Positions 1,426 to 16,230 of a stretch of 23,700 nucleotides of DNA are shown here, piece by piece; the first letter of the stretch is position 1; each line of letters begins with the position of its first letter. Location: positions 1-23,700 of the IMG/VR virus record IMGVR_UViG_3300011114_000454; one strand, 5' to 3'. The DNA comes from a virus. The notes below the pieces were generated by a model. The model worked only from the letters and a program-made list of their open reading frames with translations. It searched no databases and was not told where the DNA came from. Both the position numbers and the translations under genes were made by a program.

Positions 1426-2091
1426 TTAACCTTTCAGCCAGAAGCACGGGCCAGCCAGGAAACTCCCTGTGGCACTGGGCGGATAAAGCAATGAAGATGT
1501 GGGAGCTACAGCACTTGCGGGAGCCGCCCCGTAGGTGGTGTCTACATACATTGTTGTGGCCATTGTTGAGTTTCCGTTGATGAGCCCAGTGCTGAGTGAT
1601 CCGGTGAAATTGTCAATTTGCGGGCCAGAAAGTGTTCCAACGGCGCTCAAATAATTCCAAGGCAGCATTGCATACATGGCTGAATCTTGTTCGGCCCAAA
1701 CAGCGCCCCAATACATGCCAGCTGTTGCCGCCCAGGATGATGAAAGGGTACGCAGCGCCGCCGCGCCGGTAAGAGTGATTTCGCCAAAGTCTTTCGCCAA
1801 GGTTCCTGGGCCTCCACCGGATGCCTCATTGAAAACCATCAGACGATATTTTTTGCCGTTGTCGGATGTGCCTGAGTTGTAAACCGACGCACCAGAAAAC
1901 GTGTGATTCTCCCAGATCGCAAGCGGGAAGTAATAGACCCTGGTGGCCGTCATGTTTGTGCCGGTCGCCCCACCCATCACCCCATAGCCAATCGGACGGT
2001 AATAAGCATTGGTGATGTAGTGAGGCGGGTTCAGGTTCGCAAAGAGGCCGCTGGCCCCGGTAGGCGGATATAGGGTGCTGAAATTCGTCAT
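1426..2091 (-). CDS. Putative tail-tip / receptor-binding accessory protein
   Basis: This 221-residue protein starts at ATG 2089-2091 and overlaps the tail-fibre stop as ATGA. AGGAC lies 7 bases upstream of the start. The composition is rich in G, S, T, A, Y and W and looks like an all-beta fold. The middle (about residues 45-130) reads like a beta-sandwich domain: TATRVYYFPLAIWENHTFSG, then KKYRLMVFNE, then AATAGMYWGAVW. The two ends carry similar motifs, LYPPTGASGLFA at residues 7-18 and LYPPSATGSFLAG near residues 202-214. The C-terminus is FWLKG. Position directly after the fibre and this composition suggest a distal tail, fibre-tip or carbohydrate-contact role. I do not recognise a named family. 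Confidence 0.75.
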   Translation of the reverse strand: MTNFSTLYPPTGASGLFANLNPPHYITNAYYRPIGYGVMGGATGTNMTATRVYYFPLAIWENHTFSGASVYNSGTSDNGKKYRLMVFNEASGGGPGTLAKDFGEITLTGAAALRTLSSSWAATAGMYWGAVWAEQDSAMYAMLPWNYLSAVGTLSGPQIDNFTGSLSTGLINGNSTMATTMYVDTTYGAAPASAVAPTSSLLYPPSATGSFLAGPCFWLKG

Positions 2092-4160
2092 GGCAGTTGT
2101 CCTATTAAACGAGTTACCACTGTTCCGCTGCCGGTGCAGATGAACAGGACGATCACTTTGTCTACATCAATCACAAAATTTTCCGCAGCGCCGTCAATGG
2201 TTTGGCTATTGCGGCCAATCGTAGTGTTACCTGCGGTTTGATCTCGGCCAACCACAACCCAATCGTTTGTTGCCATCGTCGGAAGCGTGACGGTGTACGC
2301 AGCCGTTGTTGCTCTATACGCAGTACTCACAGCCGCATTTGTAGCGCCTGTGATTGTAGTCGTCGTGTAAAGCGCGGCAGGAGTAGCAGGAGTTTGCCAG
2401 GTTGGCGCACTACCAGTTGTGGCAGTCAGAACTTGGCCGGTCGTACCGTTTGCAGTTGAGGACGGAGCAGCGCCAGCGCCCCCACCATAAACAACACCAT
2501 ATTGAGTAAGCGCGGCTGACGAAGCCCAAGCCGACGCGCTGCTAAAATAGGGTATCCCGCCGCTGGTCCCGGCAACAGTCAATGCCAGCGTTCCAGAAGT
2601 CGTAATTGGCGATCCAGAAACAGAAATAAGACCGCCAGTAAAGCTCTGAGCAACACTCGTTACACTTCCGCCGCCAGCCGTTGAGGCGATGGTGATAGTG
2701 CCGCTTCCATTGGTGATGGTAATGCCAGAGCCAGCCGTAAGAGTAGCTTTAGCTAGCGTATTGCCAGTGCTTTTGCCAATAAGAAGCTGACCATCAGTAT
2801 AAGAAGTTTGACCCGTACCCCCATTGGCTACAGCAAGAGTTCCAGCCAACGTAATGGTGCCGCTAGAAGTTACAGGTCCACCGGAAGTAGTTAATCCGGT
2901 CGTGCCACCAGACACATCAATACTAGTTACGGTTCCGCTAGAAGTATCAGTAGCCCAAGATGGCAAACCGCCGGATACTTTTAAAATCTGGCCTGAAGTT
3001 CCAATACCAAGCTTTGAAAGCGTATTTGATGCACTTGCATAAAGAAGATCGCCCGTAGTCCAAGTGCTTTGCGCTGTGCCGCCATTAGTAGCCGCAAGCG
3101 TCCCAGTGACACCGGTCGATAGCGGCAAACTGGTACAATTTGTCAAAGTACCGCTAGACGGAGTACCAAGAGCGCCGCCTGGTGCAATGTAATCTGTACC
3201 GGCAGTAGCAGCACTAAACGCACTAGTGCCGTTGCCTTTAACAAGGCCGGTAAGCGTAGTTACGCCAGTACCGCCATTTCCGACCACCAAAGTACCAGCA
3301 AGCGTAATTGTTCCGCTTGTGGTAACGGGGCCACCAGAGCTAGTTAGACCAGTAGTGCCGCCGGAAACATCAACACTTGTAACCGTCCCAAGGCTAGGTT
3401 CTGCCGCCCATTCAACGTCAGTTGCACCAGAATTAACGCGCAGGAATTTAAGCGCGTTGGTGGAGTATGACGGCAAAATGGCAGACCTGGCTCCAGCCGC
3501 CGTTGTTGCGCCAGTGCCGCCTTCGCTGACTTGCACCTGATCGCCAGTAAGACTAAAAGCCCCAGAAGCGGAAAGCGTAGTAAACGCGCCGCTTGATGCA
3601 GTTGTGGCCCCAATGCTGGTGCTATTAATTGTTCCGCCAGTAATTGTTACTGACGATGACGTAACAGCGCCGTTTACACCACCTGTCGCCGTAATAAGTC
3701 CTGTTACTCCAAGCGTTCCGGCAATCGTGGTGTTGCCGGATGCCGCCGTAACTACAAACTTATCTGTATTAACTTCAAAGTTTCCAAGTACGTCAAACGT
3801 ACCCTGGAAGTCTACGTTGCCTTCTACAGTAAGATCGACGCCAGCAGGAATTAAAACGCCCGTATCCGAGAATTGGACAACTTCTGTACCAAGAACAGTT
3901 GCCCAAAATTCACCAGCGCCAGACCTATAAAAACCGCTGCTGGTTTCATCAAGCCAACCAATGCCAGGGACACCAGCCGTACCGGCATAAAAACGCAAAG
4001 GCGCAAGCATACCGCCTTCGCCTGTACGCGATAGCGAATCCGTAATCTCATTGCCAATATCATCGAGCGTTGTATTAGCCCATTCAGCTTCGATAACGGT
4101 ATTTGGCTCAACTGGATTGCCAACGGGAAGCGTATAAGTCCCTGATCCATTGCGCGGCAT
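2088..4160 (-). CDS. Tail fibre protein with Gly/Thr/Ser-rich repeats
   Basis: A 690-residue protein with a good ribosome binding site (TAGGAGTAATAATTA before ATG). The N-terminus MPRNGSGTYTLPVGNPVEP, followed by EAEWANTTLDDI and then SLSRTGEGGM, is the virion-attachment start found in many phage tail fibres. The middle is built of low-complexity beta repeats: TSVDVSGGTTGL, SGTITLAGTL and NGGTG occur in at least two near-identical modules (3261-3389 and 2811-2937 on the DNA) plus a degenerate third (GSVTSVAQSFTGG). The last 95 residues (from about TTTTITGATNAAV) lose the repeat pattern and probably form the trimeric tip that contacts the host receptor. No intramolecular chaperone domain is apparent. 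The gene overlaps the downstream tail-tip gene by 4 bases. Confidence 0.92.
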   Translation of the reverse strand: MPRNGSGTYTLPVGNPVEPNTVIEAEWANTTLDDIGNEITDSLSRTGEGGMLAPLRFYAGTAGVPGIGWLDETSSGFYRSGAGEFWATVLGTEVVQFSDTGVLIPAGVDLTVEGNVDFQGTFDVLGNFEVNTDKFVVTAASGNTTIAGTLGVTGLITATGGVNGAVTSSSVTITGGTINSTSIGATTASSGAFTTLSASGAFSLTGDQVQVSEGGTGATTAAGARSAILPSYSTNALKFLRVNSGATDVEWAAEPSLGTVTSVDVSGGTTGLTSSGGPVTTSGTITLAGTLVVGNGGTGVTTLTGLVKGNGTSAFSAATAGTDYIAPGGALGTPSSGTLTNCTSLPLSTGVTGTLAATNGGTAQSTWTTGDLLYASASNTLSKLGIGTSGQILKVSGGLPSWATDTSSGTVTSIDVSGGTTGLTTSGGPVTSSGTITLAGTLAVANGGTGQTSYTDGQLLIGKSTGNTLAKATLTAGSGITITNGSGTITIASTAGGGSVTSVAQSFTGGLISVSGSPITTSGTLALTVAGTSGGIPYFSSASAWASSAALTQYGVVYGGGAGAAPSSTANGTTGQVLTATTGSAPTWQTPATPAALYTTTTITGATNAAVSTAYRATTAAYTVTLPTMATNDWVVVGRDQTAGNTTIGRNSQTIDGAAENFVIDVDKVIVLFICTGSGTVVTRLIGQLP
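2811..2937 (-). repeat. Tail-fibre repeat module, copy 2
   Basis: This segment encodes TSIDVSGGTTGLTTSGGPVT, then SSGTITLAGTLAVANGGTG. It is nearly the same in protein as the module at 3261-3389 (TSVDVSGGTTGLTSSGGPVT). At DNA level the copies share long runs but differ at many third codon positions, so the duplication is not recent or the copies are under selection at protein level. Confidence 0.85.
3261..3389 (-). repeat. Tail-fibre repeat module, copy 1
   Basis: This segment encodes GTVTSVDVSGGTTGL, SSGGPVTTSGTITL and AGTLVVGNGGTG, the first full copy of the shaft repeat. Shorter NGGT(G/A) units lie between and around the copies (SEGGTGATT upstream, ATNGGTAQST downstream). Such repeats typically build the fibre shaft and are sites of length change by recombination. 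Confidence 0.85.
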
Positions 4161-7485: not shown

Positions 7486-8607
7486 CTAAAATGCAAATGG
7501 GTTGCCCAAATAGGCTGACCCAAGGCTTGTTAGGCCGCCAAACAATCCACCCATAGCCCCTTGTTTTGCATTATACGCATCAAGAGCAGCTTTGTATTGA
7601 GATTGCGCTGCGCCCAAAAGATCGGGCGTCTGAGCTTGGCTAGACAAAGCGAACGAAGGGAATTGAGGCATTTGAACTTGCTGACCAGACAAAAGCGCGT
7701 TCATTTCGTTAAGGCTCATTCCGCGCTGCTGCGCCTGTTCTGCAATAGCCTGTTGACGCAACTGGTTTTGCATATTGGCATATTGCTGATTAAGCGCGTA
7801 TTCCTGCGCTTGCGCCTGGTTCATTGCGCCCATGCGAGAAAGATCAAGTCCAGCAGCCTGACCCAAAGCTTGATTTTGCAAGTTGCCTTGAGCCATAGCT
7901 TCAGAAACACCCTGCTGCCTACCCTGCAAAGCACTTCCAAACTGCCTGGACGCTTCTTGTCCAGCCACATCAAAAGCATTGTATCTTTCGGCAGACTGCC
8001 TTTGGGCAAGTTGGTCTAGAGCGCGTTTATACGCTTCGGAGCCTTGTTTGAAGCCTTGATTGGAAAGCTGCGTTTCCAACTGTGACTGCTGGTATTGCTG
8101 CATTGGAGCCATGCGCTCGACAAGAGACTGAGCGATTTTGTCTCTATATCCAGTGTCATAAGTTGGAAGTGCGGTAGCTCCACCAAAATTATATGACGTA
8201 GTAAGGCCAGGCGCATAATCGGCGGTCTGCGTTTGCAGTTGCCCAGGCGTCCCGGCTGAAGTCATTGCAGGAAGGTTTTGCCAATCAAACGGCTGCTTAT
8301 AGGCTTCCCCTACCCTACCGGCAAAACCAGAAGCAAGATCGCTGCGAGCAAGCTGCGTATCAATCTGAGACTGCAACGCTGACTGCAAATCAGGCGTCAG
8401 ACCAATATTTTGAGTCCATTGGGTTACTTGCTGACTAGTGGACGGATCAGTTCCAGCAGAAGTCTGCCACGATTGAGTTCCAAACGGCGTATTAACATTT
8501 GGACGATTGGCATAGTTCTGCGTCATTACATTTTGAGCAGACGCAGCAGCTTGCGCTTGTGCAGCGCCAGTGTAATCAGGCGGCGCAGGAGTAGCTTTGC
8601 TTCCCAT
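7486..8607 (-). CDS. Gln/Ala-rich virion protein, putative internal or tail-associated
   Basis: A 373-residue protein with GGAGAAG before the ATG. It begins MGSKATPAPPDYTGAAQAQA, then ASAQNVMTQNYANRPNVNTPFG, a start I recognise from unnamed phage structural proteins (PPPDY..AA..QA..N......NRPNQ.TPFG). About residues 85-330 are long Gln-rich helices (SQLETQLSNQGFKQGSEAY, RALDQLAQRQSAERYNAF, LNQQYANMQNQLRQQAIAEQ), likely coiled coil. The C-terminus is glycine-rich and hydrophobic (GGLFGGLTSLGSAYLGNPF). This resembles DNA-transfer or internal head proteins. It begins inside the last 32 bases of the GNAT gene and ends in TAG directly followed by TGA. Confidence 0.75.
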   Translation of the reverse strand: MGSKATPAPPDYTGAAQAQAAASAQNVMTQNYANRPNVNTPFGTQSWQTSAGTDPSTSQQVTQWTQNIGLTPDLQSALQSQIDTQLARSDLASGFAGRVGEAYKQPFDWQNLPAMTSAGTPGQLQTQTADYAPGLTTSYNFGGATALPTYDTGYRDKIAQSLVERMAPMQQYQQSQLETQLSNQGFKQGSEAYKRALDQLAQRQSAERYNAFDVAGQEASRQFGSALQGRQQGVSEAMAQGNLQNQALGQAAGLDLSRMGAMNQAQAQEYALNQQYANMQNQLRQQAIAEQAQQRGMSLNEMNALLSGQQVQMPQFPSFALSSQAQTPDLLGAAQSQYKAALDAYNAKQGAMGGLFGGLTSLGSAYLGNPFAF

Positions 8608-9013
8608 CTTTCTTCTCCAAATAACGGCAATTTTCTCGCCGCAACTCTAAAACAAATAATGACCCGTCAGGATGACCGTCTTTAATGTTTGCAATCTCTA
8701 CAAATCCAACATGCTTGCTAAATCTAAGTGATTGTTTATTTCCAGAAGGAATTACGACAATCACCATATTTAGCTTTGCTACATTAAAAGCATAATCAAA
8801 TGTGCATCTTAACAATTCTCTTGTTAGCCAGTTTCCCTCACCGGCAACGTGCATTTGACACGAAGCCCCATTCCACGCATCAAACCCGACAACACCAAGT
8901 ATTTTTCCTTCAGGAGTTATGTTTCCTAAAGAACGAAAATGCTTAGTCGGAGCGTAATCAATTTTTTGACAAAGCCATTCGCCCAAAATGTTGTGTGGTC
9001 CGAAAACAATCAT
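8576..9013 (-). CDS. GNAT-type N-acetyltransferase-like protein
   Basis: A 145-residue protein whose ATG overlaps the previous stop (TAATG). The fold pattern fits GNAT: strands GKILGVVGFDAWNG and SCQMHVAGEG, a helix TRELLRCTFDYAFNVAK, the strand MVIVVIPSGNKQSLRFSKH and then VGFVEIA. The Asn in SGNKQSLRF and the GF at residues 103-104 are the usual motif B end of the family. The acetyl-CoA pyrophosphate loop (Q/R-x-x-G-x-G/A) is not canonical; GEGNWLTRELL stands there. This matches a phage-encoded GNAT subgroup found among structural genes. The substrate is unknown; modification of a virion or host protein is possible. The 3' end overlaps the next gene by 32 bases. Confidence 0.8.
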   Translation of the reverse strand: MIVFGPHNILGEWLCQKIDYAPTKHFRSLGNITPEGKILGVVGFDAWNGASCQMHVAGEGNWLTRELLRCTFDYAFNVAKLNMVIVVIPSGNKQSLRFSKHVGFVEIANIKDGHPDGSLFVLELRRENCRYLEKKDGKQSYSCAA

Positions 9014-13165: not shown

Positions 13166-14143
13166 TTAATTCTGGATACGACCCTGGAACTGAGCGCCCG
13201 AAGAAGTCAGATTGCCAGCCCAAGCCAGAATCTGAACTTCCGCGTCCTGGTTGATCGCATAGCGCCGCGTCGGGCTAAGAGCAACCATGTTACGATCCTT
13301 GTGAGGACGCAGGAAAATGTACTTCGTGTTGAGCATGAAGCCAGTATTGGCCGGGCAATAGCCACCAATACCGCCATCAAGCACAACGTCAGCATCCATA
13401 AACTTGATCGTCGGGAAACCAAGATCGCCAGTCTTGGGGTCGGTAAACCGCTGCTGCGCCTGGAGCGAAGTCATGTAATAGGTCCAGTAGGAATTGCTCA
13501 GAACGACCAAATCAGGACGATCAGAGCCACGAACCAACGAGGACCAAAGAGTGTTCATCGCCGCCTGGATCGTGGTCGAGGACGGAGTGACACTCTGAGA
13601 GCTAAAGTCATAAAGCTGCGAACGCCAGAAAGACCAAGTAGCGCGGTCAATGCCGCCGTAAGTGCCAGTGGTCGGGTCAGAAGGAACCGCCGCATCAAGG
13701 CCGGTCACTTCCTTACCGCCAGAACCAGTACCATCGCTATAAACCGACTGCGCCAGCTTATTAGCCATCGTGCTTTCGGCAACGTTCATGCGGGCTTCGA
13801 GCAAGTCAATAAACTGCTCACGGCCAGCGTTCTGCAACATTTCCAGGCCGCTCATAACGACCGGGCAAGCAAGCTGCTTAATGTTAAATTCAGCCGCGCT
13901 GATAACGTCAGCCGCCGCAACCGGCAGAAGATCGTAACCGCTATAGAAACCGGCATTGCCGTTCTGCTGGAACGAAAGTTCCTGGAAGATCACGTTACCG
14001 CCGCCAAACGGCTTTACGTTGCCACGGTTATTAAGACGGGCAAGCAAAGCATTGTTTTTGGTGACGTTATCCGCAATCTGGCGAGTACGCGACTGAATCG
14101 TAGTAGCAATAATGTCCGTAACGGACGTATTCGCAAAAGCCAT
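13166..14143 (-). CDS. Major capsid protein
   Basis: A 325-residue protein following the scaffold gene, with GGAG placed 8 bases before ATG. It begins MAFANTSVTDIIATTIQSRT, then RQIADNVTKNNALLARLNNRGNV as two phrases, and continues with GGGNVIFQELSFQQNGNA. The helix and strand order fits an HK97-fold coat protein: an N-terminal arm, an extended loop with GFYSGYDLLPV, a long spine-like helix (REQFIDLLEARMNVAEST) and a P-domain with LDAAVPSDPTTGTYGGIDR followed by a helical SFWRSQLYDF. The middle (PDLVVLSNSYWTYYMTSLQA) is common in phage coat proteins of this type. A long, structured leader upstream and a terminator downstream suggest high and separate expression. Confidence 0.9.
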   Translation of the reverse strand: MAFANTSVTDIIATTIQSRTRQIADNVTKNNALLARLNNRGNVKPFGGGNVIFQELSFQQNGNAGFYSGYDLLPVAAADVISAAEFNIKQLACPVVMSGLEMLQNAGREQFIDLLEARMNVAESTMANKLAQSVYSDGTGSGGKEVTGLDAAVPSDPTTGTYGGIDRATWSFWRSQLYDFSSQSVTPSSTTIQAAMNTLWSSLVRGSDRPDLVVLSNSYWTYYMTSLQAQQRFTDPKTGDLGFPTIKFMDADVVLDGGIGGYCPANTGFMLNTKYIFLRPHKDRNMVALSPTRRYAINQDAEVQILAWAGNLTSSGAQFQGRIQN

Positions 14144-14476
14144 CTGATTTCTCCATGATCTATTGCCCGCTCAATCGGGCGGTTAAAAACACACATCGTC
14201 CATGCAGCAGAACGAGTGGTCCGATCATGTTCTGCACCATAGGCGCAGATGGCATAACGTCCCCGACGACAAACAAATGGGATTGTTAATCTTTTGTTTG
14301 GTGTCGCTGCACGTTGTTGAAATTGTTATGTATTTTACATAAGCAGATTGCGATGATTTGTTAACTATAAGTGTTCTTGCGATGGCACTTAATTGTTAAC
14401 AAGTTCGCAAAAGCAGTAAAAACATAACAATAACAATTACTTAGCAAAACATTGTTTTGCTTTATAAACCATACGC
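14144..14476 (-). promoter_or_regulatory. Structured leader between scaffold and capsid genes
   Basis: These 333 bases hold no convincing gene and form the only large gap inside the late unit. They contain a series of inverted repeats: GCCCG/CGGGC (14165-14180), GCAGAAC/GTTCTGC (14207-14235), CAAACAAA/TTTGTTTG (14270-14300) with an inner GATT/AATC stem, TTATGTA-TTT-TACATAA (14326-14342), the palindrome TTGTTAACAA (14393-14402), and AGCAAAAC/GTTTTGCT (14443-14461) just after the scaffold stop. A composite element, TTGCGATG followed by TTGTTAAC, occurs twice (14348-14365 and 14377-14400). I see no strong sigma70 promoter on the minus strand; the best -10-like box is TATAGT. The region may carry a phage promoter with operators, or an RNA leader that controls coat protein synthesis. 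Confidence 0.6.
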
Positions 14477-15580
14477 TTATCTAGAATGTGAGGCAATAGC
14501 CGCCTCAATAGCCGATCTAACGTCCACAGCCGCTCGCTGCGGCGCTGAAATAGCTGGCGCTCCAGATACGCTTACAGCCGCAGCCCTGGCCTTCTGCGCT
14601 GCGCCAGTAAGCTTATTGGCGTCAGCCGTTTTACCGCGCTGCTGCAAAATGGTTCTAATCTTGGGGTTGGCAATGCAAGCCTGTTGATAAGCTTCCTGCA
14701 AGCTAAGCTCGCGTCCACGGCGTTGCGCGACTTCCATCAGGTCGGCCATATCATCGCGTACATCTTCAGAAAACTCGGCGTTTTCCAGAAAGTTTTGAAC
14801 TTCTCCAGCAGCTTCCTGCGTTAACTTTTCCTGCTGCATATATTGAGCCTGTTGAAACTGGTTCATAAATTGCTGAACTGGTGCCAACTGCTGTTGCAGC
14901 ATATCCCTCATTTGAGAGGACTGAGCATCCTCTTGAGGAATTTCGCCAATCAATGCCGAATCAAGCTGTTCAATAAACGTCTTTCCAAATCTTCCAACGC
15001 CAAACTGCTTAACAATATGGGCAACCATTTGAGCTACGTCGCCAGACGTACCAGTTCGCAACCTGGCTGCTGTAGCCATCAAATTATCAACAGCCTGAAG
15101 CGGATTGCTGTTTTCTGCCTTAATGAACATTTCATAAGGCTGAATAACCCGGTTGAACTGCTCAACCATCTTGCGGGCTTCAGTGCTTTCTTTGAGCGTA
15201 TTCTGAATTTCACGCTCGCGGCGCAAAACTTCGTTCTTTATTTCTGTCGGCAACGCAGCCCAATGTTCTCTTGTCTCTGGACGCCATGAGACAGGAGCTT
15301 TTTCAACCGGCTTAGGTTCAGCTTTAGGGCCAGGTTTGATTCCAGCCTGTTCAGCAACAACAGGTGCTTCTTTTTGATCGTTTCCCTGTTCTGATTTTGC
15401 AAACTTTCCCTGGTTGTCTCGCTGCTTTTCGGGTGCTTCATTTTTTACAGGCACCTCTACTTCAGGTTCAGAACCAATAGGCTGTTGTACGATGGCATCA
15501 GGCTGTGCGCTCTGCGTTTCTTCTTCTTTCGGAATAGCAGATTCAAGTACATCCCTGATTGTGGTGGGTTCAGTAGACAT
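14477..15580 (-). CDS. Capsid scaffolding protein (putative)
   Basis: A 367-residue protein between the small genes after the portal and the coat protein, where scaffolds lie. It is highly charged and Gln/Glu-rich. The first 95 residues are disordered and Pro/Glu-rich (EVEVPVKNEAPEKQRDNQGK, then AEPKPVEKAPVSWRPETREH). About residues 105-145 form an acidic helix (EIKNEVLRREREIQNTLKES), and 225-300 a Gln-rich coiled coil (MRDMLQQQLAPVQQFMNQF, then QAQYMQQEKL). The phrase P-x-S-W-R-P-E-x-R-x-x-W-x-x-L is frequent in phage scaffolds. The C-terminus is basic and Ala-rich, as scaffold domains that bind coat protein often are. GGAGAATAAATAAAA precedes the ATG. No protease motif is present. Confidence 0.82.
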   Translation of the reverse strand: MSTEPTTIRDVLESAIPKEEETQSAQPDAIVQQPIGSEPEVEVPVKNEAPEKQRDNQGKFAKSEQGNDQKEAPVVAEQAGIKPGPKAEPKPVEKAPVSWRPETREHWAALPTEIKNEVLRREREIQNTLKESTEARKMVEQFNRVIQPYEMFIKAENSNPLQAVDNLMATAARLRTGTSGDVAQMVAHIVKQFGVGRFGKTFIEQLDSALIGEIPQEDAQSSQMRDMLQQQLAPVQQFMNQFQQAQYMQQEKLTQEAAGEVQNFLENAEFSEDVRDDMADLMEVAQRRGRELSLQEAYQQACIANPKIRTILQQRGKTADANKLTGAAQKARAAAVSVSGAPAISAPQRAAVDVRSAIEAAIASHSR

Positions 15581-15894: not shown

Positions 15895-16067
15895 TACTTC
15901 TTCCTTAGCGCCTTGGCTTGCATAGCCTGTTTCAACATCTTTGTGCCGGTGTCGGCTTTATTAAAGTCTTTGGCTACAGACTGAGGAACGCCTACCTTTT
16001 TGGCAAACGCAGGATCATGCGCTGCCGCAGCCATCATCCTGGCTTGCGTTGGCGATTTACTCGGCAT
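15894..16067 (-). CDS. Small phage protein with FAKKVGVPQSVAKDF motif
   Basis: A 57-residue gene starting at ATG 16065-16067 with AAGGAA 8 bases upstream. The protein begins MPSKSPTQARMMAAAAHDP and continues with AFAKKVGVPQSVAKDFNKAD. This is a very common small phage family (P-S-K-S-x-x-Q-x-x-x-M-A-A-x-A-x-N/H-P-x-F-A-K-K-V-G-x-P-x-x-V-x-x-x-F), usually found near portal and head genes and of unknown function. It ends in a TAATG overlap with the next gene and begins inside the end of the previous one in another frame, so it sits in a chain of coupled small genes. Confidence 0.85.
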   Translation of the reverse strand: MPSKSPTQARMMAAAAHDPAFAKKVGVPQSVAKDFNKADTGTKMLKQAMQAKALRKK

Positions 16068-16221
16068 CTTTGTATTCCTTTTTATCTTCTTCAGTATCTC
16101 CTTTGCTCATTTCATCTTCAGACTCGGAATCCATAGCACTCATATCCGGTTCTTCGTACTTATCCGGCATACGCGCAAGCTGGCGAAGAATCTCAGCATA
16201 AATCTGCATTTTACCCTTCAT
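16057..16221 (-). CDS. Small acidic protein of the portal-scaffold interval
   Basis: A 54-residue gene with an excellent binding site (AGGAGG, 5 bases before ATG 16219-16221). The protein has a short N-terminal helix (KMQIYAEILRQLARMPDKY) and a strongly acidic C-terminal half (MDSESEDEMSKGDTEEDKKE). I recognise no family. The gene overlaps the start of the next gene by 11 bases. It lies in the same frame as the gene before it, separated by that gene's TAG and three codons, so amber readthrough would join the two. Confidence 0.78.
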   Translation of the reverse strand: MKGKMQIYAEILRQLARMPDKYEEPDMSAMDSESEDEMSKGDTEEDKKEYKDAE

Positions 16222-16230
16222 AACAACCTC

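Follow-up and report, generated by a model that had tools for sequence, protein, structure and literature searches.

Why does a phage leave one large gap in its structural gene unit, directly ahead of the gene for its major capsid protein? The window analyzed here is a 23,700-nt stretch of viral DNA (positions 1 to 23,700 of IMG/VR record IMGVR_UViG_3300011114_000454). Its minus-strand structural unit includes genes for the terminase, the portal, a scaffold-like protein, the major capsid protein, and tail proteins, as well as some small genes, and the phage is a tailed one, probably of the short-tailed type, similar to Mx8 and BUCT555. The gap (14144–14476, read on the minus strand) is non-coding and lies between the scaffold-like gene and the capsid gene. 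A first-pass annotation of this DNA had called it the only large gap in the unit, and this held up: the other apparent large gap (15895–16230) is occupied by two overlapping genes of 57 and 54 amino acids. Every frame of the gap itself contains stops and there is no reading frame of note, which rules out a small coding gene within it, and tblastn found no HNH match in the window. As the annotation had also said, the gap contains many inverted repeats (16 pairs of at least 8 nt) and a twofold element, TTGCGATG plus TTGTTAAC, at 14348–14365 and 14376–14400.

Two other minus-strand genes of the window caught our eye. One, within the structural unit (8576–9013), encodes a protein that we judged by eye to be a GNAT-like acetyltransferase type. 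The other (2088–4160) encodes a long, repetitive tail-fibre-like protein that is rich in glycine and threonine, with repeated units of the type GTVTSVDVSGGTTGLTxSGGP.

Conserved RNA structure in the leader

On the minus strand, the gap folds with a predicted energy of −108.5 kcal/mol, as compared to −75.5 ± 5.6 for shuffled sequences (z = −5.95); the signal from the plus strand is weaker (z = −4.8). The closest informative relatives are L183 and L189, whose leaders are 89% identical to the window's. We mapped the window's predicted fold onto these leaders and compared the outcome to what would be expected if the same substitutions were scattered. Relative to L183, five pairs had compensatory changes on both sides (0.6 expected, P = 0.0002) and six changed pairs were broken (14 expected, P = 0.0006). 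Another seven pairs were kept through one-sided changes, all of which involve G-U pairs on the minus strand. As G-U pairs are tolerated on the minus strand only, the constraint acts on an RNA transcribed in the same direction as the capsid gene.

Among 16 leaders of type A (the type found in the window; see below), hairpin P2, the closing helix Pc, and a putative pseudoknot helix (GCAGC/GCUGC) are paired in 97% of cells, but in 27–50% of cells if the alignment is slid by 1–3 columns, and these elements together have 40 two-sided cells, versus 13 in shuffles. (The GCAGC/GCUGC helix is nearly invariant and adds no covariation of its own.) The elements of the leader are listed in Table 1. The 3′ end of the A leader is a helix of the form CAUGAnn/nnUCAUG whose base touches the Shine-Dalgarno GGAG, and the Shine-Dalgarno itself is predicted to be partly paired (the probability of being unpaired is about 0.01, 0.39, 0.42, and 0.97 for G, G, A, and G).

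In the RNA, the two TTGTTAAC/GTTAAC parts of the twofold element are the arms of one hairpin. In L183, the letters of this element change and the pairing stays (C-G to U-A, on both sides). It is the pairing that is kept while the sequence changes, which makes the element a stem, and we reject its reading as a conserved operator. The first-pass annotation had suggested a search for stems conserved among relatives by covariation; such stems exist and have compensatory changes. The gap thus has the conserved, covarying secondary structure of a structured cis-regulatory mRNA leader, and that this structure is formed by RNA is well supported.

The A leader is an RNA that is new to Rfam (release 15). 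At the gathering threshold, there were no matches to Rfam in the window or in 14 loci, and at a permissive threshold (E up to 10), the A, B, and HNH alleles had chance-level matches only. A group I intron or a known riboswitch can be rejected because covariance-model matches to Rfam are absent.

Table 1. Features of the capsid leader and its surroundings, from 5′ to 3′ on the minus strand
Feature	Position	Strand	Remarks
Scaffold-like gene (367 aa)	14477–15580	−	Named by position; no family match
−35-like TTGCCT	14491–14496	−	Within the end of the scaffold-like gene
−10-like TATGGT	14468–14473	−	TATGAT or TATGTT in the nearest relatives
Predicted transcription start (+1)	14461	−	7th base after the −10; base 16 of the gap
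5′-terminal hairpin, AGCAAAAC-AAU-GUUUUGCU	14443–14461	−	Starts at the predicted transcription start
Long AU-rich domain	14318–14436	−	3 two-sided compensatory changes relative to L183
Twofold-element hairpin	arms at about 14395–14402 and 14358–14365	−	Lies in the AU-rich domain
GUGCAGC strand	14306–14312	−	Can pair with the loop GCUGCA at 14203–14208 (pseudoknot); pairing nearly invariant
Domain with long hairpin CAAACAAA/UUUGUUUG	14258–14312	−	2 two-sided compensatory changes relative to L183
Stretch homologous to the 3′ end of capsid-locus HNH genes	14151–14262	−	Covariance model R1 and nhmmer profiles
Hairpin P2	14231–14249	−	Flanked by conserved GCCA and GAACAUGA; two-sided changes in 5 of 6 pairs among 16 A leaders
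Closing helix Pc, 5′ strand CAUGAUC	14223–14229	−	Paired in 100% of cells; two-sided changes at 2 positions
Hairpin P3, loop GCUGCA	14196–14215	−	DNA homologous to the DHIVPL-coding HNH core
Hairpin P4	14167–14182	−	Matches NARKGNR codons of the HNH gene
Closing helix Pc, 3′ strand GAUCAUG	14154–14160	−	Pairs with CAUGAUC
Shine-Dalgarno GGAG	14151–14154	−	Adjoins the base of the closing helix; layout common to A leaders and HNH alleles
Major capsid protein gene	13166–14143	−	phrog_9953 major head protein, E = 2e-112

A predicted promoter over the scaffold stop codon

We collected 90 distinct scaffold-capsid gaps from viral contigs. In a fixed place across these loci, a sigma-70-type promoter sequence overlies the stop codon of the scaffold gene. 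A −10-like hexamer is found at bases 4–9 of the gap in nearly all of the relatives, usually in an extended form (TGnTATAAT), and most of the 90 have TTGC 17 bp upstream of it, which is partly forced by the conserved C-terminus of the scaffold-like protein. The window's own promoter is weak: TTGCCT-17-TATGGT is an 8/12 match, it lacks the extended −10, and a generic promoter scan of the window did not list it. In the outgroup, Stenotrophomonas phage BUCT555, the slot contains TTGACA-17-TAGAAT and about 100 nt more.

Other features of these loci coincide with the predicted start site. In all 11 of the alleles that encode an HNH endonuclease, a GTG or ATG start codon begins at the predicted transcription start. 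Among the A1, A2, and A3 leaders, the first paired base is at offset 0 from the predicted start in every member (inverted repeats overlap the −10 in A2 and A3, so the start site is unsure in those groups). In B and A4 leaders, the first base of the first hairpin is within 2 nt of the predicted start about 90% of the time, as compared to 42–49% in shuffles. Counted from the predicted start, then, the transcript would open with a stem-loop that has few or no unpaired 5′ bases, as in ompA-type leaders. The fixed place of the −10, the agreement with start codons and hairpins, and the layout in BUCT555 all support a promoter that would start the capsid transcript.

With a start codon right at the predicted +1, the endonuclease may be translated from a leaderless mRNA. 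No ribosome site is evident for the HNH genes at the capsid loci of L034/L259, L014, and L094. In B leaders, an inverted repeat (CACACC/GGTGTG, at bases 10–15 of the gap plus the partner) reaches upstream of the predicted start, which implies either read-through transcripts from upstream or an earlier start in some members.

Alternative cassettes in one slot

Across the 90 relatives, this slot contains alternative cassettes: an A leader, an unrelated B leader, or a gene for an HNH endonuclease. The A leaders form four groups (A1–A4, 255–336 nt) with detectable kinship to the window's leader. The B leaders are a large group, of about 180–210 nt, with a conserved and covarying fold of their own (165 two-sided cells, versus an average of 57 and a maximum of 74 in shuffles). 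They have no profile similarity to A leaders or to HNH genes, and what resemblance there is covers a short stretch close to the 5′ end. A rule that the whole family has structured capsid leaders would hence rest on the slot, the promoter, and the layout, and not on one conserved RNA. Most of the more distant loci that we found in bacterial genome assemblies, with 44–52% capsid identity, do not have such a gap.

The B leaders (L199, L195, and others) are a separate structured RNA of ~180 nt, absent from Rfam, in which CAGCCACCG, CCCACCT, and CGGACUG...AGGUUCG are strongly conserved. A B leader is also found on a contig that was binned as Brevundimonas (L243).

An open HNH gene of 194–203 amino acids fills the gap at 11 loci. 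These genes match the endonuclease VII family phrog_1035 (E = 3e-10 to 2e-5) or, for one of them, the HNH family phrog_6050; their matches to Pfam's HNH model are all below the cut-off (13–19 bits versus 21.4). Their open reading frames are under purifying selection (dN/dS of 0.15–0.5). In two of the three HNH alleles of type H2, the stop codon overlaps the capsid start codon (ATGA).

In a tree of the capsid proteins, the HNH alleles are scattered among the B alleles, the A4 alleles form one clade, and A1, A2, and A3 group together with moderate support. In particular, the capsid protein of L259, which has an HNH allele, is identical to those of L214 and L216, which both have B leaders; the nucleotide identities are 98% and 93%, respectively, and the first 18 bases of the gap are identical. 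Homing fits this patchy distribution of HNH genes among near-identical capsids.

The slot has been struck repeatedly: in L068, a second HNH-like gene, in the antisense orientation, is inserted between the scaffold stop codon and an intact B leader. Also, a 71-kb contig (3300047554_000338) contains two capsid loci (L035/L214 and L096/L285), of which one has a B leader and the other the HNH gene; these could be two phages that were joined or a real double locus. We rejected the idea that the leader is a multi-copy mobile element: a pattern for the leader core matches 33 stretches in the viral collection, and those that we examined are on capsid-locus contigs of the same phage family.

The A leader is related to the HNH gene of the same locus

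Two of the slot's cassettes, A leaders and HNH genes, are homologous. In loose Smith-Waterman alignments, the window's leader scores 307 against the HNH gene of L014 (208 ± 19 if shuffled), and an A4 leader (L071) scores 371 against the HNH gene (223 ± 18 if shuffled). With nhmmer, a profile of the window's group matches A4 (E = 3e-9), and a profile of A4 matches HNH genes (E = 2e-9). Blastn found no match between the leader and HNH genes, probably because of many small indels.

We also built a covariance model, R1, from non-coding A leaders only. R1 matches the HNH genes of capsid loci, with E-values, which are rough, of 7e-6 to 1e-4 for H1 and 0.009 to 0.025 for H2; the next match is at 0.11, and the best match among 58 HNH loci in other contexts has E = 0.71. 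The matched stretch includes the HNH core codons (DHIVPL), and in 6 of the 11 matches it extends through NARKGNR and the final codons of the HNH gene into the Shine-Dalgarno. A helix similar to the leader's closing helix could form in the HNH mRNA, between the codons for MTV and NRFM. Across the HNH gene, a scan for synonymous constraint was not significant overall, and an excess of conserved synonymous codons is clear only in the P2 region (P = 0.005, uncorrected).

From these sequence comparisons, the homology of the A leader with the capsid-locus HNH gene is well supported. As HNH genes are widespread outside the capsid locus, the coding gene is likely the ancestor and the leader the derivative. 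The window's leader has no open frame with an HNH motif, and the R1 and nhmmer matches to genes at the same locus point to descent of its DNA from such a gene. Thus, the downstream half of the leader seems to be the non-coding remains of an HNH gene, that is, a parasite's gene that became a control element for the capsid. The first-pass annotation had counted an open gene at this slot in close relatives against its view of the gap. Some relatives do carry an HNH endonuclease there, but the leader itself appears to descend from such a gene.

Proposed role of the leader and alternatives

We propose that the gap is a promoter plus the structured 5′ leader of a dedicated capsid mRNA, with the downstream half of the leader derived from an HNH gene (we would put the probability of this at roughly 0.6). 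Short-tailed phages share the problem of making much more capsid than scaffold from adjacent genes. In our proposal, the sigma-70-type promoter where the scaffold gene ends would give a minus-strand transcript from about 14461. This transcript would begin with the terminal hairpin, continue into about 310 nt of compactly folded RNA, and end with the closing helix at the Shine-Dalgarno GGAG. The leader would protect the mRNA from being degraded at its 5′ end and would present the capsid's ribosome site independently of the translation of the scaffold; the most likely result would be the production of far more capsid than scaffold. The sequences show the gap, the RNA fold with its covariation, and the homology to the HNH gene; from these, we infer the activity of the promoter, the start site, how the leader affects the stability and translation of the mRNA, and the order in which the locus evolved. 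The earlier view of the gap as a control region for coat synthesis therefore survives in part: the stems and their compensatory changes favor a promoter with a structured RNA leader, while the suggested operators are not favored because the repeat is kept as a stem.

The leader could instead sense a protein: a phage or host protein, such as coat or scaffold, might bind it and tune capsid translation up or down, as feedback. In favor of this, several motifs next to the ribosome site (GCAGCGA, GCCAYC, GAACAUGA, and GUUC-GCUGC) are strongly conserved, in part invariant, beyond what pairing needs, but the invariant motifs also coincide with conserved HNH codons. Moreover, capsid proteins that are very much alike occur with A leaders, with B leaders (unrelated to A), and with HNH mRNAs, and the capsid protein that is shared by one HNH allele and two B alleles argues against a capsid-specific site in the RNA. 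So, judging from the sequences, we consider protein sensing to be unlikely. That the inverted repeats act as DNA, as the target of the HNH protein or of a repressor, is quite unlikely. The twofold repeat did resemble an operator, and HNH and B cassettes swap between L259 and L214, with 98% identical capsid DNA and an identical promoter, as in homing. However, changes of the G-U type are kept on one strand only, the sequence of the repeat is not conserved, and a near-identical relative of the window (contig L001, 33.9 kb) lacks such an HNH gene that could act in trans.

A trans-acting small RNA or a transcription attenuator would also account for a compact fold, and there is one terminator-like hairpin in the gap (14196–14215, minus strand). 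But we found 4 terminator-like sites where 3.7 are expected by chance, and the structure continues unbroken into the capsid's Shine-Dalgarno. The U-run after P3 is missing in A3 and A4, so the G+C-rich hairpin with a conserved U-run of an intrinsic terminator is not present, and we reject an attenuator at P3. A product of either kind from this gap seems very unlikely. Finally, the leader's homology to an intact HNH gene and its loss of frame are what would be expected of a plain, decaying pseudogene whose fold is a by-product. We give this little credence because there are more compensatory changes than expected by chance, both in the window's leader and among A1–A4, and because each group keeps its length and structure, where a dead gene should drift.

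If the gap does provide a promoter and a structured capsid leader, how did an HNH gene come to supply half of it? One scenario is that a selfish HNH gene, inserted ahead of the capsid gene, had within its own reading frame an RNA fold of use to the capsid's ribosome site; in some lineages, the HNH coding frame would later have been lost, and the fold beside that site would have been retained as a non-coding regulatory leader. We see the odds of this scenario as about even. Homing genes are usually assumed to end in decay or deletion. This locus provides sequence evidence for a third fate, in which the coding function is lost and the mRNA fold is kept as the leader of an essential gene. If this is correct, then there is a direct route from a homing gene to a cis-regulatory RNA, at a locus where the intact gene, the leader without the gene, and unrelated leaders all occur as alleles. 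As the endonuclease, ex-endonuclease, and unrelated-leader alleles are found in phages with very similar capsids, natural comparisons among them are possible.

Comparison to known systems

Our search of open-access papers found no direct precedent for a structured RNA ahead of phage capsid genes or for domesticated homing genes. The T7 gene 10 leader sits between the scaffold and capsid genes of T7. Our locus resembles it in having a predicted promoter between those genes, along with a stem-loop at the 5′ end and a strong ribosome site. It differs in that the predicted promoter resembles those of host sigma-70, and in that its leader is complex, several times as long, and apparently derived from an HNH gene. 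The leader of T7 gene 10 (capsid) is in use as an mRNA stem-loop enhancer; in Cupriavidus, the stem-loop increased expression by a factor of 1.5 to 3 (PMC6146998). Similarly, 5′-terminal stem-loops such as that of ompA can stabilize mRNA (Emory 1992 and Arnold 1998, as cited in PMC2777011). Our predicted transcript also starts with a stem-loop.

Free-standing homing endonuclease genes of T4-type phages contain expression signals of an essential neighbor, which hinders their deletion; for example, segG contains promoters of gene 32 (PMC2988022). This offers a reason for the fold to outlive the protein at our locus. As with segG, an endonuclease gene lies between phage genes and contains signals of the essential gene downstream. 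The differences are that the embedded signal at our locus is an RNA leader with a fold, which persists in the A lineages although they have lost the coding part, that the endonuclease is of the HNH family, and that the downstream gene encodes the capsid. In seg43 of Aeromonas phage 25, a hairpin is found directly upstream of the ribosome site and does not cover it (PMC2988022). The base of a stable helix likewise abuts the Shine-Dalgarno in our leader, but the seg43 hairpin serves the endonuclease itself and the helix described here would serve the capsid gene.
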